64,000 nt of DNA from Bacteroidales bacterium (lineage in GTDB: Bacteria; Bacteroidota; Bacteroidia; Bacteroidales; VadinHA17): NCBI GenBank assembly GCA_025454755.1, contig JALONV010000009.1, forward strand, positions 1 to 64,000, read 5' to 3'. A program made the translations under genes and the position numbers. Numbering within the stretch: position 1 is the first letter of the stretch; the number at the start of each line of letters is the position of its first letter. This document shows positions 10-15,575 of the stretch, one piece after another. Below the pieces are notes generated by a model that saw only the letters and a list, made by a program, of their open reading frames with translations, did no database searches and had not been told where the DNA came from.

Positions 10-681
10 ATGATCATTATGTTTGTTGCGATGATAATGTTCCCTTCAGTTCTTAAATCCCAGGATAAAGAGAACTCCCTGTTTACAGCCGGTGCCGATC
101 TTTACAGCAGTTATATTTTCAGAGGTACAAAATATGGGACAGGTCCTGCAATTCAGCCGATGCTTAAATTCTCAAAAGCTTTTTTCAGTGCCGGAGCCTG
201 GGGATCATTCGGTTTCCACGGATACCAGGAAGCTGACCTTTATTTCTCATTTTCGCTTCCGGCAGGTTTCAGTCTGGGCATGACCGATTATTATTATCCG
301 GACTATAATTATTTCGACTATACCGACACAGCAGGCAGCCATGCATTTGAAGTCAACCTGGGGTTCTCAAAATGGGGGCTGACACTGAGCGGGAATTACA
401 TTCTGAACGAAGCAGGTAATGCAGGGTCAATTGGCGGAGACAAGTATTTTGAAGCAAGATATTCATTCAAATCTTTATACCTGTTCCTGGGGGCAGGCGA
501 TGGCTGGCACTCTTTAAATACCGCAGACGGGAAAGACAGGTTCACAATATGCAATGTCGGAATAGGAGTGACACAAAATATCGAAATCACTGATAAATTC
601 AGCATGCCTGTTAATGCCCAGGTGATCTTCAACCCGGATACCAAAAAAATGTTCATAATCGCAGGCTTTACCTTGCAATAG
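10..681 (+). CDS. putative outer-membrane porin-like protein (TorF-like); true start may lie upstream of the window
   Basis: Hydrophobic N-terminus, aromatic/glycine-rich beta-strand pattern ending in 'IIAGFTLQ', 'AGADLYSSYIFRGTKYG' motif; lies just upstream of amt. Confidence 0.6.
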   Translation: MIIMFVAMIMFPSVLKSQDKENSLFTAGADLYSSYIFRGTKYGTGPAIQPMLKFSKAFFSAGAWGSFGFHGYQEADLYFSFSLPAGFSLGMTDYYYPDYNYFDYTDTAGSHAFEVNLGFSKWGLTLSGNYILNEAGNAGSIGGDKYFEARYSFKSLYLFLGAGDGWHSLNTADGKDRFTICNVGIGVTQNIEITDKFSMPVNAQVIFNPDTKKMFIIAGFTLQ

Positions 682-1072: not shown

Positions 1073-2404
1073 ATGAATTCAAAATTTAAAAGAGTCTTAT
1101 TGCTGTTCCTGTTATCTCTGGCAGGCAGTGCCGGACTCTATGCATCAGATGGAACTCCGATTGATTCAGGTGCAACTGCCTGGATGCTGACCTCAACTGC
1201 ACTTGTACTATTGATGATCCCGGGACTGGCGATGTTCTATGGTGGACTTGTACGGTCGAAAAATGTACTGGGAACCATTATGCACAGCTTTGTTGCTATG
1301 GGTATTATAAGCGTTCTGTGGGTAGCTGTCGGTTATTCGATGGCCTTTGGGAAGAATATCCTGGGAGGTATTTTCGGATGGAGTCCAGATTATTTCTTCC
1401 TGAAAGGAATAGATACCAATATCCTTGATGCCGGTATTCCGGAGTATGTTTTTTCAATGTTCCAGGGCAAGTTTGCAATAATAACTCCTGCACTCATTGC
1501 CGGCGCTTTTGCTGAACGGGTCTCTTTTAAGGCATATTGTATATTCATAGCGTTATGGAGCCTGCTTGTCTATAATCCCCTTTGTCACTGGGTATGGGCA
1601 TCCGATGGTTTCCTTTTTAACCTCGGCGCAAAAGGTGCAATCGATTTCGCCGGAGGAACGGTTGTTCATATATCCGCCGGGGTAAGCGGACTTGTAGCTG
1701 CACTATTTCTTGGATCACGCAGAGGTTATCCTTACCAGGTGATCAGGCCTAACAACCTTGTGATCACAATGCTGGGAGCCGGACTTCTTTGGGTGGGCTG
1801 GTTCGGATTCAATGCAGGAAGCAGCATATCAAGCGGACTGGGGACAGCTCAGGCTCTTACCGCCACCCAGGTGGCTGCAGCTGCCGGAGCTCTTGCATGG
1901 ATCATTATTGAGAGTTTTCACCAGGGAAAAGCAACTGCTCTTGGTTTTGCTTCTGGAATTCTGGCAGGACTGGTTGCAGTAACACCGGCCGCAGGAGTTG
2001 TCCAGCCATATGGTGCATTGATAATCGGTGTACTCGCTTCACTGATATGTTATATGGCCATTCAGGCTAAAAACCGTCTTGGCTATGACGACAGCCTTGA
2101 TGCATTCGGGATACATGGAGTGGGGGGTATTGTTGGAGCATTATTCCTTACGTTCTTTATCAGAAAATCATGGATGACAGATGCGGCTGCAGTTTCCGAT
2201 GGCACATGGACGATCTGGAATCAACTAGGTGTACAGTCTGTTGCAGTGCTTATTGCAATAGTGTTTGCCGGAGGAATGACATTCCTGATAATCTGGACGC
2301 TCAATAAGTTCGTGAAATTCAAAGCTTCCGAGGATGATGAGATGGCAGGTCTCGACAGATCATACCATGGTGAAAGAGGTTATGGAATGCTGAATCCCAG
2401 TTAA
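1073..2404 (+). CDS. amt: ammonium transporter
   Basis: Amt family motifs (DSGATAWMLTSTALVLLMIPGLAMFYGG, DFAGGTVVHISAG, GIHGVGGIVGALF). Confidence 0.97.
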   Translation: MNSKFKRVLLLFLLSLAGSAGLYASDGTPIDSGATAWMLTSTALVLLMIPGLAMFYGGLVRSKNVLGTIMHSFVAMGIISVLWVAVGYSMAFGKNILGGIFGWSPDYFFLKGIDTNILDAGIPEYVFSMFQGKFAIITPALIAGAFAERVSFKAYCIFIALWSLLVYNPLCHWVWASDGFLFNLGAKGAIDFAGGTVVHISAGVSGLVAALFLGSRRGYPYQVIRPNNLVITMLGAGLLWVGWFGFNAGSSISSGLGTAQALTATQVAAAAGALAWIIIESFHQGKATALGFASGILAGLVAVTPAAGVVQPYGALIIGVLASLICYMAIQAKNRLGYDDSLDAFGIHGVGGIVGALFLTFFIRKSWMTDAAAVSDGTWTIWNQLGVQSVAVLIAIVFAGGMTFLIIWTLNKFVKFKASEDDEMAGLDRSYHGERGYGMLNPS

Positions 2405-2430: not shown

Positions 2431-2778
2431 ATGAAACTTATAACAGCAATAATCCGTGAAGTCCAGCTCGATAAAGTTCGCGAAGCCCTTATCGCAGCAG
2501 AAATAACCAGGATAACAGTAAGCCGTGTTTCCGGACATGGACAGCAGAGAATAGAGGAAATGTACAGGGGTCAGCGAATAGTCCCCGACCTCATACCAAA
2601 AATCAAAATAGAGATTGCAGTTAATGAATCATTTGTAGAAATTACCATCGATGCAATTCTCAGATCGGCAAAAACCAACGGGACAGAAGGTGTCGTAGGT
2701 GATGGAAAGATATTCATTACTCCTCTTGAAGAGTGCATACGTATCAGGACCGGAGAAAGAGGCGGTACCGCGATATAG
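2431..2778 (+). CDS. glnB: nitrogen regulatory protein P-II
   Basis: PII fold sequence with C-terminal signature EECIRIRTGERGGTAI; directly downstream of amt. Confidence 0.95.
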   Translation: MKLITAIIREVQLDKVREALIAAEITRITVSRVSGHGQQRIEEMYRGQRIVPDLIPKIKIEIAVNESFVEITIDAILRSAKTNGTEGVVGDGKIFITPLEECIRIRTGERGGTAI

Positions 2779-2896
2779 AAACAGCAACTGTTTCTCAGGG
2801 AGACTGAAGACAAGAATGAGCCCGGGAAGCAGACATATTTATTTTTCATTCCCGACACTCATATAATATTAAGTTAAAGACGGTTGATCAAGCCAC

Positions 2897-3690
2897 TCAG
2901 GGGAGAAGAATTTTAGGGGTGATATCGATTCTTTTTCCCATCATGATGCCGCCCGCCATTGTTTTCATTGCGATAATCCCATATTGTTTCTTTAACAGAA
3001 CCGGTAATGCTTTCAGCTGGAACGATTCATAGAAGGGGTCGCAGACATTTAGAGGCATCTGGCATGTATCAAGTTCAATGCCCATAGCTTCGATCCTGCA
3101 AAGGAAATGCAGCATGGCCGACGGAGTTTTATGACCCGAAAATCCGATATACCTGGTTTTTCCTTTAGATTTGGCTTTCAAAAATGCATCCAGTACACCA
3201 TTATTTATACGGTTATCCACATCCTCAATGCTGCCTAAATGATGAATTTGCCAAAGATCGAGATAATCAGTATTTAAAGCTTTTAGCGAGGCATCAAGCT
3301 GTTTTTTTTACCTCTGCTCCGCCTGCTCCATGTGCCTTTGTCATGATGAATACCTGATCGCGGTATTTCGGAGATAGAAAGCGTCCCATGTATTCTTCGG
3401 ATCTTCCCTGATTATAACCCCTGGCATTATCGAAAAACCTTACACCAAGCTCAATGGATTTTTCCATCATTATTTCCGCATCTTTAGGGTTGTCTGTAAA
3501 ACCAAAATGGTATCCGCCAAGGCAGAATGCGGTGACCTTTTACCCGTGCCTTGTCAGCTTTCTCAACGGAAGTGTATCTCCAAGCTTGTCCCTGACAGGT
3601 ATTGCGGATGCCCAGTCAGCAACCAATCCAAAGGCGATTGTTGCGGATAGTTGTTTAATAAATTGTCTGCGATTTTCCTTATAAGTATGT
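2897..3690 (-). pseudogene. aldo/keto reductase family pseudogene (Tat-like NRRQFIK N-terminus)
   Basis: Aldo/keto reductase similarity spans two frames: frameshift at an 8-nt A/T run (3302-3309), in-frame TAA near 3540 (RHG*KVTAFCLGGYHFGF), no obvious start codon, truncated C-terminus. Confidence 0.75.
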
Positions 3691-4101
3691 ATTACCTTTA
3701 AATATCAATTAAATCATTCTGATTTCTTTAAGAAACAGAGAGAAAAAATCAAACTAAAGCATTAGAAATCCTTAGTAAGACAAAAAAATAGTAATATTGG
3801 AATTTGATAATTATAAATGGTGGCTATTTATTATCTTATATATAATAGGATCGGCTGCCGGTATGATGGGACTTCTGGCATTCAGGAGGGAGGTTATAAC
3901 TTCAACGAAAAGGCTCAGGCTGTATTTCCCGTGCTTGGGGTAGACATTAATGAGAACGAGGCGGCACGCTATCCGATTGGAACAAAATGGTTATCGAATG
4001 TATCGAATGTGAAATAAAGGTTTCCGGTAAAAGAAACAGGAATGGGTTAATAAAATGCATAGGTTAAGAGATAAGATTTGTAAAATAAATTAAGTGTTAC
4101 C

Positions 4102-4620
4102 ATGAAAATTTCATTATCAGCTTTTTTAACGGTAATAATCATTGCTATCCACATGCCATGCAAAGGTCAAAAGGAGAACTTGTATGTCGGAACAATGGAT
4201 CAGAGAGAGAGTAAGGGTATTTATGTCTATGAATACAACAGGGCAGCAAACACTTTTACACTTTTGCAGACCAATCCGGAAATCAAGAATCCCAATTTTC
4301 TGGTTATACATCCCGGAGGGAAATATCTTTACTCGGTAAATACCGTAAGGGGGAATGACGGAAAGAGATTTGAAGCCGTCAGCTCGTTTGCGATAAACAA
4401 GACCAATGGCATCCTTAAGTTCATCAACCAGATACCTACATACGGCAAAGCAACATGCCATGTAAGTATTGACCATAAAGGAAGGTTCGTACTTGTTGCC
4501 AATATGAACTCCGACAGTATAATCTCCTTAAGTCTTGATAAGTCAACAGGCAGGCGCAAAAGCAACGGGCTTACTTTATCTCTCCCCGCCCCATGCTGCC
4601 TTAAGTGGCTGATGCTTTAA
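4102..4620 (+). pseudogene. truncated lactonase-family (YbhE/6-phosphogluconolactonase-like beta-propeller) gene
   Basis: N-terminal half resembles lactonase family proteins (NLYVGTMDQRESKGIYVYEYN... HPGGKYLYSVN... VSIDHKGRFVLVANMNSDSI), then a low-similarity tail at 172 aa instead of ~350+ aa. Confidence 0.6.
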
Positions 4621-4717
4621 CCATTGTCCGGATTTTAGCAACCCCGGACCCTAACAGATAATCTGCAAAGGCAGTAAAACTATTCAGGAACAGAGTAAAT
4701 TAATTACAGAAAAAAAC

Positions 4718-6052
4718 ATGGATTCAAAAAAAATTTTCAGATATGCGTTGATCCTTTCTCTGCTTGCCTTTGCAAGTGCCGCAACCGGTCTGATTTTTAA
4801 AGCAGGCAAACCGACATGGCTGCTATTCCTGGCAGGTTTTGTTATTCTCTCGGTCGCCGTCAGAGGGTACCCGGTTTTTAAAGGATTCTCTTACACTCTC
4901 CTTATCTTCGCAGCAGTTATCCTATCAATGATCTATCCAGGGCCTTTCGTGAAAGTCGGAACCTTCGAGATGAAAAAACTCATTGTACCCCTTCTGCAGA
5001 TCATTATGTTCGGCATGGGTTCCCAGATGAGCCTTCAGGATTTTACCGGTGTGATTAAAATGCCCAAAGGTGTGATAATAGGTGTTGTTTCGCACTATTT
5101 AGTAATGCCTCTTGTTGGCTTCGCAATAGCAAGCCTTTTCTCTTTCCCGCCCGAGATCGCTGCCGGGATAATACTTATAGGATGCGTTCCCAGCGGTCTG
5201 GCATCGAATGTAATGTCGTTTCTTGCTAAAGCCAATCTTGCGCTTGCAATAACTGTGGGAGCCATCTCCACCCTGCTGTCTCCCTTTATTACCCCAATAC
5301 TCATGAAATGGCTGGGAGGACAGTTTATTGAGGTGAACTTCTGGAATATGATGTTTGACATTCTGAATATGATTATACTTCCAGTGGTTGCAGGATTTAT
5401 TTTTAACCTTTTTGCAAAAAAAGTAGTTGCAGTAAGGTCTAAAGTCATTCAGCTTTCAGCCTATTTAATAATCATTGTTCTTACCAACCTTGTCTTTTTA
5501 AAGTCAAAAGATGCCGGCATGGCTGATTTCTTCATTAATCTAGCAAAAAACATGATATGGTTCTATTTTTTGCCAATAACAGGAGCTGTTATTTTTTCAA
5601 AACTTCTCAGGGGTGAAGATAGTATTCTGAGCAGGGTTTTGTCATTCTTTTCAATGGCAGGAATTGCTGTGATCATTACCATAATTACTGCTTCGGGACG
5701 GGACAGCCTGCTGCAGGTCGGAGGACTTCTGATGATTACCAGTCTCCTTCATAATCTTTCGGGCTATACGCTGGGGTATTCTCTTTCATGGCTTGTCGGC
5801 CTGCCTGAGCGTGACCGGCGTACCATCGCCTTTGAAGTGGGTATGCAGAATGGCGGACTGGCTTCGGGGCTCGCGCTCCAGATGGGTAAGGTGGCAACCG
5901 TGGGACTTGCTCCTGCCATATTCGGCCCGCTGATGAACATCACCGGATCCACCCTGGCAACTTGGTGGAGAAACAGGCCTGTGGAACAAATTACTGCTCC
6001 CGGGGAGTGCATTCCTATCCAGACCGGAGAAAGAGGAGGGAAAGCTATTTAA
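4718..6052 (+). CDS. bile acid:sodium symporter (BASS) family transporter with PII-like C-terminal tail
   Basis: Multi-pass protein with BASS motifs (FGMGSQMSLQDF, GCVPSGLASNVMSFLAKANLALAITVGAISTLLSPFITP, FEVGMQNGGLASGLALQ); C-terminus GECIPIQTGERGGKAI. Confidence 0.9.
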   Translation: MDSKKIFRYALILSLLAFASAATGLIFKAGKPTWLLFLAGFVILSVAVRGYPVFKGFSYTLLIFAAVILSMIYPGPFVKVGTFEMKKLIVPLLQIIMFGMGSQMSLQDFTGVIKMPKGVIIGVVSHYLVMPLVGFAIASLFSFPPEIAAGIILIGCVPSGLASNVMSFLAKANLALAITVGAISTLLSPFITPILMKWLGGQFIEVNFWNMMFDILNMIILPVVAGFIFNLFAKKVVAVRSKVIQLSAYLIIIVLTNLVFLKSKDAGMADFFINLAKNMIWFYFLPITGAVIFSKLLRGEDSILSRVLSFFSMAGIAVIITIITASGRDSLLQVGGLLMITSLLHNLSGYTLGYSLSWLVGLPERDRRTIAFEVGMQNGGLASGLALQMGKVATVGLAPAIFGPLMNITGSTLATWWRNRPVEQITAPGECIPIQTGERGGKAI

Positions 6053-6099
6053 AAAAAAGACGATATTTGCACGCCTTATTATTTCATCTGGTATTATAG

Positions 6100-7197
6100 A
6101 TGCGTGTACTCTATCTGATTAATAGTTTCAATTACGGCGGTGCGGAAAACCATGTCCTGGATCTTGCAAATTCAATGGCAGAGCTCGGCAACGATGTCCA
6201 TGTTATTGCAGGAAAAGGTTTGCAGGCAAACCGTCTCAGCAGCAAGGTGAAGTATATTCCTATGAGAATGAGAGATATCTTTCTCCCGTTTCAGGTAGTG
6301 TTAATATGTTTCATTGCTTCAAGGTACAGGATAGAAATAATGCATGCGCACAAGCGTCTTGCAATTCTTCAGGCTTCACTGGCAGGGACTATTTTAAATG
6401 TTCCTGTTGTGGCGACAGTACACGGCAGGCCGCGTTATGATATGCGTTCCCGGTTATCGAAGAGACTGACCGACAGGATCATATTCGTGAATAACACAAC
6501 CTACCAGGCAAACTTCAACAGCAGGTATTTCCGGGATAAGTCAGTTCTGATACATAATGGAGTTAAGATTAATGGTCATTGTGCCGTAAAAAATCATTTT
6601 ACTTTGCTGTATATCTGCAGGATCGACAGGAAACATGCTGAAATGATCTCTATGCTTATAAATGATGTTGTTCCGGAAATAATTAAACGCTATCCGGAAG
6701 TGACATTTGAAATAGCTGGTGACGGGGAGACATTTGAAATAGCTGGTGACGGGGAATTCTTCGGAATATTGAAAAATGATGCAGAGATCCTGAACAGGCA
6801 ATTTAATCGCAAAGTGATTCTGTTCCATGGATTTATAGATGATATAAAACCGGTTGTGGACCGGTCAGGGATTGTCATGGGTGTAGGGAGGGTAGCCCTT
6901 GAAGCCCTATCATGCTCTGTCCCCGTGATATCGTTGAACAGGAAGTTTATGGGACAGCTGATAACAAGGGATAATTACGAATTCTACAGGCTGAATAACT
7001 TTGTTGCTATTGATCACGGCAAACCTGATACGGAAAAACTGGCAGGCATGTTGAGTGATTACCTCCATGATCCTGAATTTTGGCATAGCGAGGCAAAAGA
7101 GCTGCGCAGATCAGTTGAGGAACACCTCAGTATTGAAAAGATAGTATCTGATATTCATGGACTCTACACTGAAGCATGCCTTTCAAAAAAAGACTGA
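6100..7197 (+). CDS. glycosyltransferase family 4 protein
   Basis: GT4-like N-terminus (YLINSFNYGGAENHVLDLA) and 'EIAGDGE' region; contains a 27-bp in-frame tandem duplication. Confidence 0.85.
   Translation: MRVLYLINSFNYGGAENHVLDLANSMAELGNDVHVIAGKGLQANRLSSKVKYIPMRMRDIFLPFQVVLICFIASRYRIEIMHAHKRLAILQASLAGTILNVPVVATVHGRPRYDMRSRLSKRLTDRIIFVNNTTYQANFNSRYFRDKSVLIHNGVKINGHCAVKNHFTLLYICRIDRKHAEMISMLINDVVPEIIKRYPEVTFEIAGDGETFEIAGDGEFFGILKNDAEILNRQFNRKVILFHGFIDDIKPVVDRSGIVMGVGRVALEALSCSVPVISLNRKFMGQLITRDNYEFYRLNNFVAIDHGKPDTEKLAGMLSDYLHDPEFWHSEAKELRRSVEEHLSIEKIVSDIHGLYTEACLSKKD
6703..6756 (+). repeat. 27-bp tandem direct duplication (TFEIAGDGE x2)
   Basis: acatttgaaatagctggtgacggggag / acatttgaaatagctggtgacggggaa, 26/27 identical. 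Confidence 0.97.
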
Positions 7198-7280
7198 TAC
7201 TCAACATGATTGATTTTCCTTTTCAAAGCTAAAATTTGTATATTTACAGAAAGGACTATTAATTAAAATACCTCCTGCAT

Positions 7281-7814
7281 ATGAAAAGTCTTGTTCTTAT
7301 TCTTGTTGCTGTTTTATTTTCAGCATGTGCTGATCAGAAATCAGAAGACACGAAATATGTCACTGCACCAGACACATTCGATCCGGCGACGCTTTTGGTT
7401 AAAGGACCTGCAGATTCAGGGCTTACTGGACAGCTTCTTTATATGCCTGTATATTCGAATATTCCCTATCATATTGTGGGTATGAGTGAGTTCGACATGA
7501 GCGCATTTGTTGCCGTCCATAATACTGATCTGCTAAATCCGATAAAAATAACCAAAGCACTCTATTTCGACACGCATGGTAAACCGGTATTTGATTTTCT
7601 CATTGAAGGAGTGGTTGATCTGGAACCCCTTGCCACCAGGGATTTCTATGTCCCCTATGAAGATAAAAGCGGAACGGGTGCAAATTTTCTGATTGAATGG
7701 ATTTCTGCTGAGCGTGTCAGCGAGCCGCTGGTTGAATCGATAACAATCAGTCTAAAGCCTAACCAGAGCGTTGCGTTTCTCAGCAAGGGCAGGGTGATAA
7801 GAGAAAGCAGATAA
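7281..7814 (+). CDS. DUF3124 domain-containing lipoprotein
   Basis: Lipobox LLFSAC-like N-terminus (VLFSACADQ); 'LYMPVYSNIPY... FDMSAFVAVHNTD... FYVPYEDKSGTGANFLIEW'. Confidence 0.75.
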   Translation: MKSLVLILVAVLFSACADQKSEDTKYVTAPDTFDPATLLVKGPADSGLTGQLLYMPVYSNIPYHIVGMSEFDMSAFVAVHNTDLLNPIKITKALYFDTHGKPVFDFLIEGVVDLEPLATRDFYVPYEDKSGTGANFLIEWISAERVSEPLVESITISLKPNQSVAFLSKGRVIRESR

Positions 7815-7877
7815 GACCAAAGAGAGGCTGCCACAAAAGCCTCTTTATATCTTCAATAATTTGTACAGTAAATTTCC

Positions 7878-8168
7878 CTATTTCTGAGGATCAGGGTTTG
7901 GTTCTTCAGGTTTCGGTTCATCTTGTGTCTTTTTCCTGATACCCTCAGCAAGATCTTCCAGTTTATCGGCTGCCTTTACTGCAACTTTTTTACCGAACTC
8001 TTCAGCCTTGTCTAAAGAGTCTTTAATTTCACCGAAAGCCTTGCTTTTCTTTACCTTATCAACCTTCTCATCGATGAAATCATCGGCTTCGTCTATCAGT
8101 TTCTTTGCTTTTTCGGCCCAACCCTCTTCTTCAGGTCCAACCGGTTCTTTTTTTGTTTCTTCTTCCAT
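7878..8168 (-). CDS. small highly charged Lys/Glu-rich protein, amphipathic helical
   Basis: 96-aa ORF with heptad-like KVDKVKKSKAFGEIKDSLDKAEEFGKKVA; no competing ORF. Confidence 0.6.
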   Translation of the reverse strand: MEEETKKEPVGPEEEGWAEKAKKLIDEADDFIDEKVDKVKKSKAFGEIKDSLDKAEEFGKKVAVKAADKLEDLAEGIRKKTQDEPKPEEPNPDPQK

Positions 8169-8419
8169 AATTTAAAGAGTTAAGTTATTTAGCAAAAGAT
8201 TTAGTACCCTGAGGGGTGATATTAGCGTGAATGGTTAAAGTTATAAAAGATAGATCAGACCGGCAATGATAAATTGATAATTTTAGTTGTGGTATTTATA
8301 ATCTTCAAATTCTGAAAAAACTGTTCAGACATATACAAAAATGATTTTTTATCTGCTAAAAATAAAATTGACTTTAGATACTCGTTTTCGTAAATTTGAC
8401 GGGACAAATCCTTCAGGTT

Positions 8420-9895
8420 ATGAAGAAATACATCTTTTCATTGCTTTTAATTTTGACAATAACTTCCTGCGTCAATAACAACAATAAGGCACGCTGGCCT
8501 CAGTTCCGGGGTCCTGACGGTTCAGGCGTGGCTGATAAAAAAGCCAGGCCTCCCGTCAGATTTGAAGAAAACCTGAAATGGCAAACTGATCTGCCGGTCG
8601 GTTTTTCTTCGCCTGTTATCTGGGATGACAAAATATTCCTTACCGGATATATTGAAGAGAAAAAAGAGCTGGCGACGATCTGCTTAAACCGCGAAGATGG
8701 AAAAATCATCTGGCAAAAATCTTTTTCTCCTGACACACTTGAAAAATTTCATTCTGTGGCCAATCCGGCCCAGAGTACTCCGGCGACGGACGGCGAAAGG
8801 GTGGTTTCATATTTCGGCTCCTGCGGGCTGGTGTGTTACAACATGCAGGGAGAATTACTTTGGAAGTATTCAAAACCATGCACTAAATTTATGTATGGAA
8901 ATGCAACATCGCCGGTAATTACAGATAGCAAAGTAATATTGATAAAGGATGAAGGGAGGATCAGGTATCTTCTCGCAATTGATAAAACAACCGGAAAGGA
9001 AATATGGAGGGCCGGTTTTGAACGTGACACACTAATAGGATGGGCCGGTAACGCCACACCCTTGATCTATAAGGATAATGTTATTGTCCACAGGGTGGGA
9101 GAAGTTGCAGGCTATTCAGTTAGTGACGGAACATGTTTATGGAACTATAAAATCCTGACGGAAGCGTCCGGTTCTCCGGTCATAGCAGAAGACAAAGTCC
9201 TGATCAGCTGCTGGTATAATTTAAGTGATGATGCAGAACGCCCTGAAGTGCTTGATTTTGAGGGATTACTTCTGAAATCTGATTCAAATAAAAACGGTAA
9301 AATTGATAAAACCGAAATCCCTGGAGACCTCATGCTCTTTCAGAGACCAGAGATGAAAGAAATTGAAGGAACATCTTTTTCAGTTAAACCGTATTTTGAT
9401 GGACTGGATATGAATGGAGATAAGGAACTTGATGATAAGGAATGGGAACAGGTACTTGAATGGTTTAAAAATTATAGCAGGCCATCAGGTTTAATCGCGA
9501 TCAGTCCCGATTCAAGGGGTACACTGAACGACAGTGCTGTCCTTTGGAGAGTGACTAAATATATATCAGAAGTCCCATCTCCGATTTATTACAAAAAGAG
9601 AGCTTACATGATAAAAGACGGAGGTTTTGTGACATGTGTAAATCCGGGAACTGGAAATATAATTTATCAGACAAGAGTTGGGACCCCCGGACCTTACTTT
9701 GCATCTCCTGTGGCTACCAACGGTCTTTTGTATCTATTTGCATTCAATGGCAGACTTACAATAATAAAAGCCGGAGACGAACCGAAAATAGTCGCCAAAC
9801 ATGATTTTAAGGATAATATAGCGGCTTCGCCTGCGATTATAGGGAATACGATCTATATTCGTACAAAAAAAGGCCTTCTGGCCTATTCTAATTGA
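8420..9895 (+). CDS. PQQ-like beta-propeller repeat lipoprotein with inserted EF-hand-like motifs
   Basis: Lipoprotein signal MKKYIFSLLLILTITSC; start moved to 8420 because 8396 lies in the predicted -7 box; repeats such as GKIIWQKSF, GELLWKYS, GKEIWRAGF; DSNKNGKIDKTEI and DMNGDKELDDKEW. Confidence 0.8.
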   Translation: MKKYIFSLLLILTITSCVNNNNKARWPQFRGPDGSGVADKKARPPVRFEENLKWQTDLPVGFSSPVIWDDKIFLTGYIEEKKELATICLNREDGKIIWQKSFSPDTLEKFHSVANPAQSTPATDGERVVSYFGSCGLVCYNMQGELLWKYSKPCTKFMYGNATSPVITDSKVILIKDEGRIRYLLAIDKTTGKEIWRAGFERDTLIGWAGNATPLIYKDNVIVHRVGEVAGYSVSDGTCLWNYKILTEASGSPVIAEDKVLISCWYNLSDDAERPEVLDFEGLLLKSDSNKNGKIDKTEIPGDLMLFQRPEMKEIEGTSFSVKPYFDGLDMNGDKELDDKEWEQVLEWFKNYSRPSGLIAISPDSRGTLNDSAVLWRVTKYISEVPSPIYYKKRAYMIKDGGFVTCVNPGTGNIIYQTRVGTPGPYFASPVATNGLLYLFAFNGRLTIIKAGDEPKIVAKHDFKDNIAASPAIIGNTIYIRTKKGLLAYSN

Positions 9896-10078
9896 TTCTT
9901 AAATCATATTGTAATTGTAATCACATTAAAGTAGATCTTTATAAAGCTTTCTTCTTTTCTGTCGCGGAATATCCACTTCGTTACGATCTCCTTAATAGTT
10001 TGACTTTGGTCTTTTTCTGTCGTAAATTGGATCAATAAAACAACGACTCATTTAAATTAACAATTAAAGCCTGAATTC

Positions 10079-10522
10079 ATGGACAACTTAATTATTAGAA
10101 CCCGGTATCCTTTGTCCAAAAAAATAATTTATGGCGGAGGAATGATTTTAGTGGCTGTTGTAATGATAGTTTTAAGCATCACACTGCATATTAAGTTTTT
10201 AGCCGGATCGATGATTCCTCTTCTGGGAACAGGAGTATTATTTTTTACTCCTCTTATGGGTTCATATAATACACAGATTTATGCAGCTAATGGGTTTCTT
10301 AAGATAAGATGGCCTGACAGGGCTAAAATAAATGTGCTGGAATCTGAAATTGAAAGGATTACCTTATCGACTAATTATATTTTTATTTTCAGAAAAGTCA
10401 GGAAAAATATTAAACTTACGCTATATGATAAAGATCAAAAAGCTCAGGTCTTTAAATTTTTTACTGAATATGCAAAAGAAAAAAATATTCCCCTGGTTAA
10501 CCAGGATGAACAGAAGCATTAA
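10079..10522 (+). CDS. hypothetical membrane protein (two TM helices plus PH-like domain)
   Basis: Long ORF with hydrophobic N-terminal hairpin; preceded by predicted promoter at 9999-10030. Confidence 0.6.
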   Translation: MDNLIIRTRYPLSKKIIYGGGMILVAVVMIVLSITLHIKFLAGSMIPLLGTGVLFFTPLMGSYNTQIYAANGFLKIRWPDRAKINVLESEIERITLSTNYIFIFRKVRKNIKLTLYDKDQKAQVFKFFTEYAKEKNIPLVNQDEQKH

Positions 10523-10715
10523 ACATATCTTTTATCTCCCCTTTTTTATCTTTTTCATCCATTTCCGAAGATGTAAAAAACTGGTGCAGATTCGCCACTA
10601 AAAATAAATTTGACTTAGGCTTTTTGCTGTTGTAACTTTACATTTTCTGATGGTTAACAAGCCATAATGATATTCTGATCGAATTGATTTTATTGTTTTC
10701 TTATACTTTGCCACT

Positions 10716-11723
10716 ATGAAACAATTAAGTTATTTGCTCTTCATTTTCATTTTGTTACTTTCAGGATGTGACAGGAACGATAATGGTGATGAAAATAATA
10801 ATGACTCACCAAAATGGACTAAATACACAGGCAATCCGGTAATGATTCCCGGTGCTTCAACTGATTGGGACAGGGAATTTGTAGGCTTGGGATCGGTGAT
10901 TTATCATGGAGACGTATTCAAAATGTGGTATTCCGGAGGAAGTATGACCAACACCAGTTCACCTTTACGAATTGGTTATGCCACATCCCCTGACGGGATC
11001 ACCTGGTCGAAGTACAATAATAATCCGGTTTTAAATAAAGGATCAGATGGAAGCTGGGATGATAATTCAGTTCATTCTCCCTGTGTTTTAATCATTAATG
11101 ACAAATTTCATATGTGGTATACCGGACACAAAGGATCTGATTCAAGTATTGATTTTCAGATAGGTCATGCCACTTCGTCAGACGGTATTGCCTGGACAAA
11201 AGATCCAAATAATCCGGTTCTGAAAAGGGGAATAATAGGAGACTGGGATTATTATTGGGTCTCAGTTGGATCAGTCTTATATGACGGCACCGAATATCAT
11301 TTATGGTACACAGCCAGTGGCACTAGTGGAATAAAGATTGGGCATGCCACATCTCCGGATGCACTGACCTGGTCAAAAGATCCTTCAAATCCCGTTGTTA
11401 TTCCGGGAAGCTCGGGAAGCTGGAACTATCCAAGAGTTGACTTTCCGACAGTTATATATGATGGCACTATTTATGAAATGTGGTACTCCGGTGGTGGTGG
11501 TTTTAATTGGCGTATTGGTCATGCCAGATCCTCAAATGGTAGTACCTGGACGAAAGATGCTTATGGGGTAATAACTGTCGGTCCCGTAGGAAGCTGGGAT
11601 TCGAGATCGGTAGCCTGCATGTCAGTAATAGATAGTTCAGATGTAAAATATAAAATGTGGTACTGGGGAAGCGACAATGCAAATCTGGCAAGTATCGGAT
11701 ATGTCACTAAGCTGCATGAATGA
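10716..11723 (+). CDS. five-bladed beta-propeller lipoprotein (GH43/GH32-like repeats)
   Basis: Lipobox LLLSGC; five repeats of the type W(T/S)K-x-NPV-x-PG ... MWYSGG ... IG(Y/H)A. Confidence 0.75.
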   Translation: MKQLSYLLFIFILLLSGCDRNDNGDENNNDSPKWTKYTGNPVMIPGASTDWDREFVGLGSVIYHGDVFKMWYSGGSMTNTSSPLRIGYATSPDGITWSKYNNNPVLNKGSDGSWDDNSVHSPCVLIINDKFHMWYTGHKGSDSSIDFQIGHATSSDGIAWTKDPNNPVLKRGIIGDWDYYWVSVGSVLYDGTEYHLWYTASGTSGIKIGHATSPDALTWSKDPSNPVVIPGSSGSWNYPRVDFPTVIYDGTIYEMWYSGGGGFNWRIGHARSSNGSTWTKDAYGVITVGPVGSWDSRSVACMSVIDSSDVKYKMWYWGSDNANLASIGYVTKLHE

Positions 11724-11808
11724 AAGATATGATACAATTCCGCTAATTTTAGTTGGGAATTTTTTTTTACTCCCGTTTTGAGCTCATATAAGACAGAGCA
11801 TAAGATTG

Positions 11809-11857
11809 GCAAAAGAAAAGAATATTACCCTGGTGAACCAGGATGAATAGAAGCATT
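11809..11857 (+). pseudogene. 49-bp remnant of the 3' end of a second copy of the 10079-10522 ORF
   Basis: 45/49 identity to 10472-10520 (AKEKNIPLVNQDEQKH versus AKEKNITLVNQDE*). Confidence 0.8.
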
Positions 11858-11977
11858 GAAGCAGATTCCACGCTTCACTTCGTTACACTCCCGGAATTTA
11901 ATAATAAATCGACCTTAAAAAAATTTGACTTTGGCTTTTTACCGGTGTAACTTTGCATTAAACTAAACTTGCTGGAT

Positions 11978-13396
11978 ATGAAAGCCTTAGTTAAATTTCT
12001 GCCAATTATTCTTGTTCTGACAGCGATTATCAGTTTTTCATCATGTGAAAAGAAGGATGCTGGGTCTGAAAAGGGAATGCTTGAAATCTCTCTGAATTTA
12101 CCTGACGAGACAAGTTCTTCCAAATCGGGTGTGAACACCGACAGCAGTGGAGTAGTTTCATATCATTTAATGATTTCCATTGAAGATATGGAAGGTAATC
12201 TGGTTATGAATGATTCTATGATTCCACTTTATACTTTCGGAACAGGTTTTGTCAGTAAGAATGTAGAACTGAAAACCGGAGAGTACAAGCTGTCCAAATT
12301 CATGGTGATTAATCCATCCGGAAAGGTTGTTTTTGCAACACCGGTTGAAGGTGCTCCTCTCGCATACCTTGTCAACAGACCGCTTCCATTGACTTTTAAT
12401 ATCCTGCCCGTCCAGGTTACCAGAATAATACCTGAAGTGCTGGCAGTCGGAGATAATTCTCCAACCCGGTTTGGATATGCCAGCTTTGGCATTCAGATCA
12501 TTATGCCGCTTCATTTCTGGACAATATGCATACCAGATAATCCATTAGCGACGGCCATCTCACAACTTACAGCAGCAAAACTTACTATCTATGCTGAAAA
12601 TGGCTGGCATTATACTTTTAGGCTGGAGGCAGCAGTAAATCATCTGATAATCAGGGGAGGATCGCAGGTATATTATTTTCTGCTGGAAAAGGAGGGTTAT
12701 CAGCCAAAGAAAATGCTGTTCACGGCAGAACAATTAATGTCAACCACCAGGGAAAATCCCCTCATTCTGAAAATTCCATCGGTCAGCGCTACAGTTAATT
12801 TAAAAGAAGGATTAGTTGCATATTACCCTTTTGTCGGAAATGCAAGTGACATTAGCGGGAATAATCATAATGGAATTGTTCATGGTGCAACATTAACCTC
12901 TGACCGGTTCGGAAATATGAATAATGCTTACTGCTTTAATGGAGTTGATACATTTATTGATCTGGCTAATACTGATACTCTGAATATGTTTTCAGGATTT
13001 ACACTTTCTGCATGGGTTAATTTTAAAACCAGTAATGGCGGTTCAATAGTATCTAAGCATATTAATTATTTCTATAATTCTTTTACGATGGCAGCTACTA
13101 ATTGTAATGCTGTTCTCACAACTGATAACTCACACTATTATATTGCAACAACAGAAAAGTACAATGATGGAACCTGGCATTTGTTCACTGGTGTTTTCAC
13201 CGGAACCAGGTTATTAATCTATGTAGACGGATTATTAAAAGTATCTGGCAATGCAAGCTATACAACGGGGAATGATAGGGAAATAAGAATAGGAGCAGAT
13301 TCAGAATTATCGTTTTTTAATGGAAAAATTGATGACGTCCGGATCTGGAACCGTGCATTGAGCGAGAACGAAATTTTTGCTTTATCTAAAGAGTGA
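11978..13396 (+). CDS. lipoprotein with LamG/concanavalin A-like C-terminal domain
   Basis: Signal MKALVKFLPIILVLTAIISFSSC; C-terminal 'LVAYYPFVGNASDISGNNHNGIVHGATLTSDRFGNMNNAYCFNG ... GKIDDVRIWNRALSENEI'. Confidence 0.85.
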   Translation: MKALVKFLPIILVLTAIISFSSCEKKDAGSEKGMLEISLNLPDETSSSKSGVNTDSSGVVSYHLMISIEDMEGNLVMNDSMIPLYTFGTGFVSKNVELKTGEYKLSKFMVINPSGKVVFATPVEGAPLAYLVNRPLPLTFNILPVQVTRIIPEVLAVGDNSPTRFGYASFGIQIIMPLHFWTICIPDNPLATAISQLTAAKLTIYAENGWHYTFRLEAAVNHLIIRGGSQVYYFLLEKEGYQPKKMLFTAEQLMSTTRENPLILKIPSVSATVNLKEGLVAYYPFVGNASDISGNNHNGIVHGATLTSDRFGNMNNAYCFNGVDTFIDLANTDTLNMFSGFTLSAWVNFKTSNGGSIVSKHINYFYNSFTMAATNCNAVLTTDNSHYYIATTEKYNDGTWHLFTGVFTGTRLLIYVDGLLKVSGNASYTTGNDREIRIGADSELSFFNGKIDDVRIWNRALSENEIFALSKE

Positions 13397-13540
13397 AGAT
13401 TGGATCTAAATACTTATGACAGGATGCTCATTAAAATGAAATTGACTCTGGCTTAAAGAAAGTGTAACTTTATTATATGTAACTATTAATAAAAGATATT
13501 CAATTCAACATCAATTTATTACTACTATATCAAAATAAAA

Positions 13541-13954
13541 ATGGAAAGTATTAAGGACACCTCACAGGAAGGATTTATAAATGTGAAATTTAATCTTACT
13601 TACTCTGTTTTGATGATTCTATTTGGAATAGCGTTTGTCATTTGGGCTTTATGGCCTGATCGGGATGTCTTTCTAAAATATTATTTCCTTATATTGGGAC
13701 TGATTGTATTAGCACATGGCATTTACGCAATATCAGGTGGAAGATATTTCAGATATTATCTGGCTGATAAGAAAATTATTTTTTCCGGACTCTTTATGAT
13801 AATCGGCAGAACCGTAAAATTTGACAAATTATTTATTAAAGGTAAAGACCTTTATAGAGTAATAAACGGAAAAGTAAGATACATAAACCTTATAAAGTAT
13901 CAGTGCAATAAAAAAGATCTTGATATCTTCTTTCAAGAAATCAATAAGGGGTAG
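13541..13954 (+). CDS. hypothetical membrane protein, PH-like
   Basis: ORF with two N-terminal TM segments and charged soluble tail; promoter at 13441-13472. Confidence 0.55.
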   Translation: MESIKDTSQEGFINVKFNLTYSVLMILFGIAFVIWALWPDRDVFLKYYFLILGLIVLAHGIYAISGGRYFRYYLADKKIIFSGLFMIIGRTVKFDKLFIKGKDLYRVINGKVRYINLIKYQCNKKDLDIFFQEINKG

Positions 13955-14188
13955 TCCTTAACAAGCTTTACGGAGCAAAAACAAATTTAAATCCTTTTTG
14001 CACTTGTAGTATTGCAGCAAGATATATTTATTCCAAATTAGAGATACCGCTACTCTTTTGTATTACGTAATTAGTTCCAACTATTTGGATATAATAAAAT
14101 ATATTTTCTGATCAAAGAAAGGTTTCCGAAATTTGATACAGAAGGCAATGATCGTAATAAAGATTACCACAACATTAAACTAAATTGT

Positions 14189-14635
14189 ATGAAAACATTA
14201 CGAATTATTACTGCAATTTGTTTCTTCCTGGTTTCAACCTCAATCGCTTATTCACAAGACACCGCAATGTTCAAAGCTAAAATTCACAAGTATCAAAACA
14301 AGGTGCGAAATGGCAAGATATTAACAATTACTGGTACTCCTTTAATTGCAGTTGGCGGGATACTTTTTGCCGTCGGGAATCATAATTTGCAACTTTCTAA
14401 TGATTATAGTATTTTTTCAGATGAGAGCCAGAGATATTCAATCAGAGGAACAAATTATGAAGTGCTTGGGCTCCTGATTGGAGAAGCCGGAATTGCTTTA
14501 ACGGTAACCGGCATAATTAATAGGAGTATTGGGAAAAGAAAAATTACCCAGTATAAAATTAAACTTGACAATGCAAGATCAGGTTTTTACTATAGACCTG
14601 ACCAGGCAGGATTAAGGCTGGCATTTAAGTTTTAA
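14189..14635 (+). CDS. hypothetical secreted/membrane protein
   Basis: Signal peptide-like N-terminus (MKTLRIITAICFFLVSTSIAYS), C-terminal 'AGLRLAFKF'. Confidence 0.55.
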   Translation: MKTLRIITAICFFLVSTSIAYSQDTAMFKAKIHKYQNKVRNGKILTITGTPLIAVGGILFAVGNHNLQLSNDYSIFSDESQRYSIRGTNYEVLGLLIGEAGIALTVTGIINRSIGKRKITQYKIKLDNARSGFYYRPDQAGLRLAFKF

Positions 14636-14808
14636 GACTATCAGTTAGTTTAATATATCGATTTTATATCCGTAAACCGGCTCCTTCTCAACTTTTATCT
14701 TTTGCCTTTTGTTCCGCTGTGCGGAATTTCCTCACTTCATTCGTCAATCTTTAATTTTATTTCAATATCTTTGGTAAGTGTTTCCAAACGTGCTAAATAA
14801 TTTTGGAT

Positions 14809-14847
14809 ATGCTAATAAGAACATTTGCCAGTGCCGTTACCGGTATT
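14809..14847 (+). repeat. duplicated 5' end of comM (first 13 codons)
   Basis: 38/39 identity to 15576-15614; upstream ~40 nt also recognisably similar. Confidence 0.95.
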
Positions 14848-14910
14848 TTTGATTCTGTCGTTGACATTTCTAATTTAAATCCTCAAACTGATAAATGGCC
14901 AATACAATTT

Positions 14911-14935
14911 AACTGGTCGCAATTTGCGACCAGTT
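14911..14935. promoter_or_regulatory. perfect palindrome aactggtcgcaa-t-ttgcgaccagtt, candidate operator of the ORF6N gene
   Basis: 12-bp perfect inverted arms with 1-nt centre, 17 nt upstream of the start codon at 14953. Confidence 0.7.
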
Positions 14936-14952
14936 CATAATTAGCTGTCTTT

Positions 14953-15480
14953 ATGATAAGCAAACTAATAAAAGCAGATTATAAATCTCTGATATTTGAG
15001 TTCAGAGGGTACAAAGTAATGGTTGATTTTGACCTTTCAATATTATATGGTATTGAAACAAAACGTTTGAAGGAACAAGTAAAGAGAAATATCAGAAGAT
15101 TCCCGGAAGATTTCATGTTCGAATTAACCAGGGAAGAAAAGGAACACTTGTTAGTGACTTGTGAACGGTTATCAATGCTTAAACATTCTTCGGTCAGTCC
15201 GATGGTTTTTACCGAACAGGGGGTAGCTATGCTTTCATCTGTGCTCCATTCAGAAAAAGCTATCAGCATCAATATTGAAATTATGAGAGCTTTTTCTCAT
15301 TACAGAGCATTGTTATATGAAAATAATGAGCTCAGAAGAGAAATTAAAAACCTAGATAAGAAGATTAATACGGCATTCAGGTTTCTGCTTAGCCGAATAG
15401 ATGAACTTCACCAAAAGAAAATTGCAAGAAAACCGATAGGATATAAAAATTATGCGGATGGAGAAAAAGAATCTGATTGA
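14953..15480 (+). CDS. ORF6N domain-containing DNA-binding protein
   Basis: FRGYKVMVDFDLSILYGIETKRLKEQVKRNIRRFPEDFMFELT... FTEQGVAMLSSVL. Confidence 0.9.
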   Translation: MISKLIKADYKSLIFEFRGYKVMVDFDLSILYGIETKRLKEQVKRNIRRFPEDFMFELTREEKEHLLVTCERLSMLKHSSVSPMVFTEQGVAMLSSVLHSEKAISINIEIMRAFSHYRALLYENNELRREIKNLDKKINTAFRFLLSRIDELHQKKIARKPIGYKNYADGEKESD

Positions 15481-15575
15481 AACTATATCCGAGGTATTTC
15501 AAGAGTATATTTTGTTAATAAATAATTTCCTATATTTAGAAGGTGTTTCCTTGAAGTGCTAGTAAACTTAAAATT

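Follow-up and report, generated by a model that had tools for sequence, protein, structure and literature searches.

Why should a transporter of the BASS/SBF family end in the C-terminal signature of a PII protein, and does the resulting tail carry any of the regulatory functions associated with PII? The question is posed by the window analysed here, a stretch of 64,000 nucleotides from a Bacteroidales MAG, in which the transporter lies 3.2 kb downstream of an intact glnB gene (Table 1). The explanation which we favour, with a probability of roughly 0.8, is that the tail represents the locus's own glnB 3′ end, orphaned when a catabolic gene cluster was inserted.

Table 1. Features of the amt–glnB region, with positions in the window.
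Feature	Position	Strand	Basis or remark
Outer-membrane-like protein (OMP) resembling Gcw_chp; flanks the conserved amt–glnB locus on the left	10..681	+	
amt, ammonium transporter	1073..2404	+	Pfam
glnB (PII), intact	2431..2778	+	The genome's only PII match besides the tail
Aldo/keto reductase (AKR) pseudogene	2912..3677	-	One in-frame TGA, one frameshift, cut
Two scraps (N-terminal, C-terminal) of an enolase-superfamily (MR_MLE) gene, middle deleted	3830..3987	+	
Truncated 7-bladed lactonase, about the first third	4102..4620	+	Profile positions 2-119 of 344
BASS/SBF transporter with an intact body, ending naturally at about ...RNRPVE	4718..5986	+	Pfam, ortholog C-termini, structure model
CAA codon at the junction, possibly the former BASS TAA stop	5987..5989	+	
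C-terminal tail of BASS (20 codons and the stop), putatively an orphaned glnB 3′ end	5990..6052	+	glnB match, shuffles
Promoter-like motif ACGATATTTGCA upstream of GT	6060..6073	+	Also in the glnB–GT gap of G009 and, less exactly, G003
Glycosyltransferase (GT, Glyco_transf_4)	6100..7197	+	

Translation of the transporter ORF (4718–6052) gives the C-terminus ...STLATWWRNRPVEQITAPGECIPIQTGERGGKAI and that of glnB (2431–2778) gives ...FITPLEECIRIRTGERGGTAI, each followed by the stop; the two ORFs end in ITAPGECIPIQTGERGGKAI and ITPLEECIRIRTGERGGTAI, respectively. Codons 425–444 of the transporter together with its stop codon are the same as the 3′ end of glnB at 47 of 63 nucleotides, the encoded C-termini are identical at 14 of 21 residues, and an exact run of 15 nt, GACCGGAGAAAGAGG, is common to both. 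The homology begins at position 5990 (ATT ACT...), the preceding CAA differing from the TTC of glnB. Over 66 nt the tail scores 47/66 on glnB, the runner-up site on either strand of the window reaching 36/66. Chance similarity is ruled out by 150 codon-shuffled tails, whose best matches anywhere in the window average 33.7 and do not exceed 37/66. The part of the tail reading TGERGGxAI is better kept (8/9) than the part before it, whilst the positions of the two ATP-contacting arginines of PII (R101/R103) are occupied by P and Q. The first-pass annotation of this DNA had described the same counts, the same substitutions and a true relationship to the PII C-terminus, all of which were borne out on recounting.

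The remainder of the protein is an ordinary member of its family. Pfam assigns the transporter, glnB and amt to SBF, P-II and Ammonium_transp, respectively; the transporter matches PF01758 with an E value of 1.7e-36, and also TIGR00841, albeit below the curated cut-off of that model. SBF and SBF_like are its only Pfam matches, with no PII domain found, and its PII homology is confined to 20 codons, whereas the full PII domain, with its ferredoxin-like fold, has about 100 residues. An AlphaFold2 model built from the protein and 20 relatives has a helical body and a mean pLDDT of 80.8 for the whole chain. Orthologs from a search of 60 related genomes are mostly 51–72% identical, and all of them end in a short, mostly charged stretch of their own after WWRxKP. 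In another Bacteroidia MAG (locus L143) the protein stops at ...WWRSKPPKE, which aligns with ...WWRNRPVE in the window; the fusion point is therefore the natural BASS end, and the glnB homology starts exactly where the short orthologs stop. That the tail follows the usual end of the transporter as an appendage produced by rearrangement had been proposed in the first-pass annotation, together with a search for the tail in related BASS proteins as a check. This search returned the window genome only. The tail is absent from 23 orthologs of the genus and order; across 395 genomes of the order, 17 match the protein at E below 1e-120 and the window alone aligns beyond residue 433; and a further set of about 60 BASS C-termini taken from GTDB genomes, with some loci represented again, also lacks it. 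In all, about 80 other BASS proteins were examined and the tail was found in none, ruling it out as a conserved feature of the family.

The neighbourhood suggests where the tail belongs. The flanking order OMP–amt–glnB...comM is conserved in the genus, and glnB is immediately followed by a GT ortholog in three genomes (G003, G009 and G062) and has one 1.4 kb downstream in a fourth (G035). In G009 comM follows GT, as it does in the window, where it is farther on. The window GT adjoins the BASS tail, not intact glnB, and ACGATATTTGCA starts about 10 nt after the tail stop codon; the glnB–GT gap carries ACGATCTTTGCA in G009 and GCGATATTTACG in G003. Since GT and the promoter-like motif follow the tail just as they follow glnB in relatives, the tail occupies the native slot of a glnB 3′ end. 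Judged by gene order, it is the intervening 3.2 kb, from intact glnB to the tail, that does not belong here. The interval from glnB to comM (2779–15554 in the window; L061, L062, L097, L098, L102, L104 and L105) ranges from below 1 kb to about 13 kb, differs in gene content among species of the genus and looks like a variable region. The window GT also contains an in-frame 27-nt tandem duplication at 6703–6756 (TFEIAGDGE twice, as judged by eye), of which the G003 ortholog has one copy.

The 3.2 kb in question contain the remains of a gene cluster. The AKR pseudogene shares 64–69% identity with a 339-aa protein that is intact in G023; relative to this protein it breaks off at residue 256, at its glnB-facing end. 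Of the two enolase-superfamily scraps the C-terminal one is recognized at E 6e-10 and the N-terminal one only at E 0.009. The L143 locus, which lacks a PII gene, has AKR, the enolase-superfamily gene, the lactonase (likewise truncated) and BASS side by side, and the insert in the window is therefore the fossil of such a catabolic cluster, of which BASS is the sole gene still open. Among the genes identified in 2779–5986 there is no integrase; the window carries two diverged glnB 3′ ends. The L143 lactonase (2744–3184) is truncated at profile position 109 of 344, compared with 119 of 344 in the window; this near-equal truncation may be an old lesion of the cluster shared by both.

From these observations we infer the following course of events. 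The ancestral order would have been OMP–amt–glnB–GT–...–comM, and a cluster comprising AKR, the enolase-superfamily gene, the lactonase and BASS would have been inserted at the glnB 3′ end, so that intact glnB retained one such end and another remained next to the GT promoter. Decay would then have overtaken the enzyme genes but not BASS, whose open frame was either fused in phase to the orphan or extended into it by loss of the BASS stop (possibly TAA to CAA at 5987–5989), translation now terminating at what would be the old glnB stop. The two ends could have arisen in either of two ways. The glnB end may have been duplicated within the lineage on insertion. Alternatively, the cluster may have arrived with a donor glnB end and recombined with the resident glnB, the other junction being made illegitimately inside the resident end. 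In homology-facilitated illegitimate recombination (PMC3240628), one end is joined by homology and the other illegitimately. Such an event would leave one donor and one recipient end of the anchor gene, as in the second alternative, although no donor with glnB beside such a cluster was found here. The relatives' loci examined contain neither an insert with an unfused BASS stop nor such a cluster, an AKR or a lactonase beside glnB as a donor arrangement, so the insertion step is not seen directly. Furthermore, AKR lies on the strand opposite to that of its L143 counterpart, and an additional inversion or a different donor arrangement is therefore needed. The sequences following the two glnB ends are too diverged to give an informative match to any relative.

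On this reconstruction the direction of movement is probably the reverse of that first proposed. The first-pass annotation had a PII tail moved onto a transporter, whereas synteny would place the tail in the ancestral slot and have the cluster moving in. Its suggestion of a neutral 3′ end swap comes closest to the truth, except that it is the cluster rather than the tail that would have moved, and it was right to connect the decayed genes between the two loci with the event.

Divergence between the two ends bears on their origin. Relative to its own glnB the tail has changed at 8.0 of 15.2 synonymous and 7.0 of 44.8 nonsynonymous sites. The synonymous divergence of 0.53 compares with at least 0.59 to any other glnB end of the genus. 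In simulations, which are simple and based on 20 codons, a neutral copy gave a mean synonymous divergence of 0.28, with a fraction of 0.05 at or above the observed value, and a random genus allele gave a mean of 0.78, with a fraction of 0.046 at or below it. The observed value is intermediate and therefore does not choose between duplication and an imported allele. The nonsynonymous divergence is 0.16 per site, against a pairwise median of 0.056 among glnB ends of the genus, and fits weak or no constraint on the tail sequence.

An improbable alternative, in line with the scenario of the first-pass annotation, is ectopic duplication or gene conversion, by which the upstream glnB, 3.2 kb away, would have supplied a copy of its 3′ end to BASS, with adjacency to GT a coincidence. 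The window's own glnB is indeed the nearest to the tail among about 30 3′ ends of the genus (47/66, the second at 45/66), and synonymous divergence is lowest to it. This lead amounts to only 2 nt, however, and the 15-nt run is weak evidence of a local source because its codons recur identically in the glnB of other species. A copying event also leaves unexplained why the tail stands immediately ahead of the GT promoter, in the place of the native glnB end.

Orphaned glnB ends do occur in this genus, as is shown independently by the genome G076. A search of 63 genus genomes with the PII tail returned ordinary PII genes and two orphans only, in the window and in G076. G076 (L061, G076:C19, 3930–4000) and G061 (L102) are about 90% identical over the amt–glnB locus, and in the former amt and the glnB body have been lost in a clean 1.79-kb deletion, which starts in the hairpin CCCCCCTATTTATAGGGGGG downstream of OMP and stops at the 3′ end of glnB. 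Just the last 62–63 nt of glnB are retained, and this is the only PII match in G076. Across the order sample the only match in a clearly longer frame apart from the window, of 592 aa in G097, resembled a fusion but was rejected: amt and glnB are ordinary neighbours there, and the long frame is spurious. A second PII paralog as the source of the tail was likewise set aside, none being found in the window genome, where an undetected lost paralog is possible. No PII match at E 0.001 was obtained in 19 of the 63 genomes, several of them near complete, and amt–glnB seems to be dispensable in this group.

The G076 breakpoint and the start of the window tail lie within about 3 nt of each other in glnB, both orphans beginning at the I of KIF|ITPLE. 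This coincidence, along with the variable content and length of the glnB–comM interval, could point to the glnB 3′ end as a recurrent site-specific breakpoint or integration site in the genus, a proposal compatible with cluster insertion. It nevertheless seems distinctly improbable. There are two cases only, the probability of their falling in the same place is estimated at about 2% if breakpoints are uniform along glnB, and the genes named in the insert include no evident integrase. Were a repeated breakpoint at the same codon to prove general, it would indicate a recombination hotspot at glnB in these Bacteroidales.

There is very little probability that the tail is a functional PII-derived handle, whether as a PII mimic, by interfering with trimers or targets, or through regulated degradation. 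The idea of a mimic or regulatory handle was raised in the first-pass annotation, and the frame has been kept open, TGERGGxAI is the better-kept portion, and the regulation of transporters by PII is well known. Against it, the tail occurs in one genome only, both arginines are lost, seven nonsynonymous differences have accumulated in 45 sites compared with the genus median, and a PII fold is impossible with 20 residues. Residues 424–444 are the only segment of the BASS model with pLDDT below 50, and the tail is predicted to be disordered. A narrow literature search, requiring all terms together, returned no paper on a PII/GlnB–transporter fusion in Bacteroidetes. Most likely the tail is without PII-type function, and it is an evolutionary fossil rather than a new regulatory device. 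It is very doubtful that an orphaned PII end has since been taken into use as a C-terminal BASS handle, for example by binding GlnB or GlnB partners weakly; if it had, a gene fossil would have become a regulatory peptide. An assembly chimera joining glnB sequence artificially to BASS is equally hard to credit: the genome is a MAG in 160 contigs, but the longest exact repeat (15 nt) is shorter than the k normally used in assembly, 16 of the 63 tail sites differ from glnB and so exclude a collapsed copy, and both flanks follow genus synteny, so that two independent misjoins would be needed.

Parallels can be drawn with two known situations. In AmtB–GlnK and SbtA–SbtB a whole PII trimer binds the transporter, and the fold of SbtA is BASS-like. 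The window similarly brings together a transporter and PII sequence in one locus, but here there is a 20-residue PII end only, with neither fold nor ligand site. This is a caution that a common C-terminal signature need not imply common regulation. Another likeness is to E. coli icd, where insertion of e14 or phage 21 into the gene end has orphaned 3′ ends of the icdC type. In both cases the inserted DNA has an intact gene with its 3′ end on one side and, on the other, a diverged second 3′ end of that gene, which in the window lies next to GT, the ancestral downstream neighbour of glnB. No integrase or element is recognisable among the genes named in the insert, a decayed catabolic cluster, and, unlike in icd/icdC, the orphan end now codes for part of a different gene's product; at codon resolution, this is a case of one protein acquiring a segment of an unrelated protein through an insertion at a gene end.
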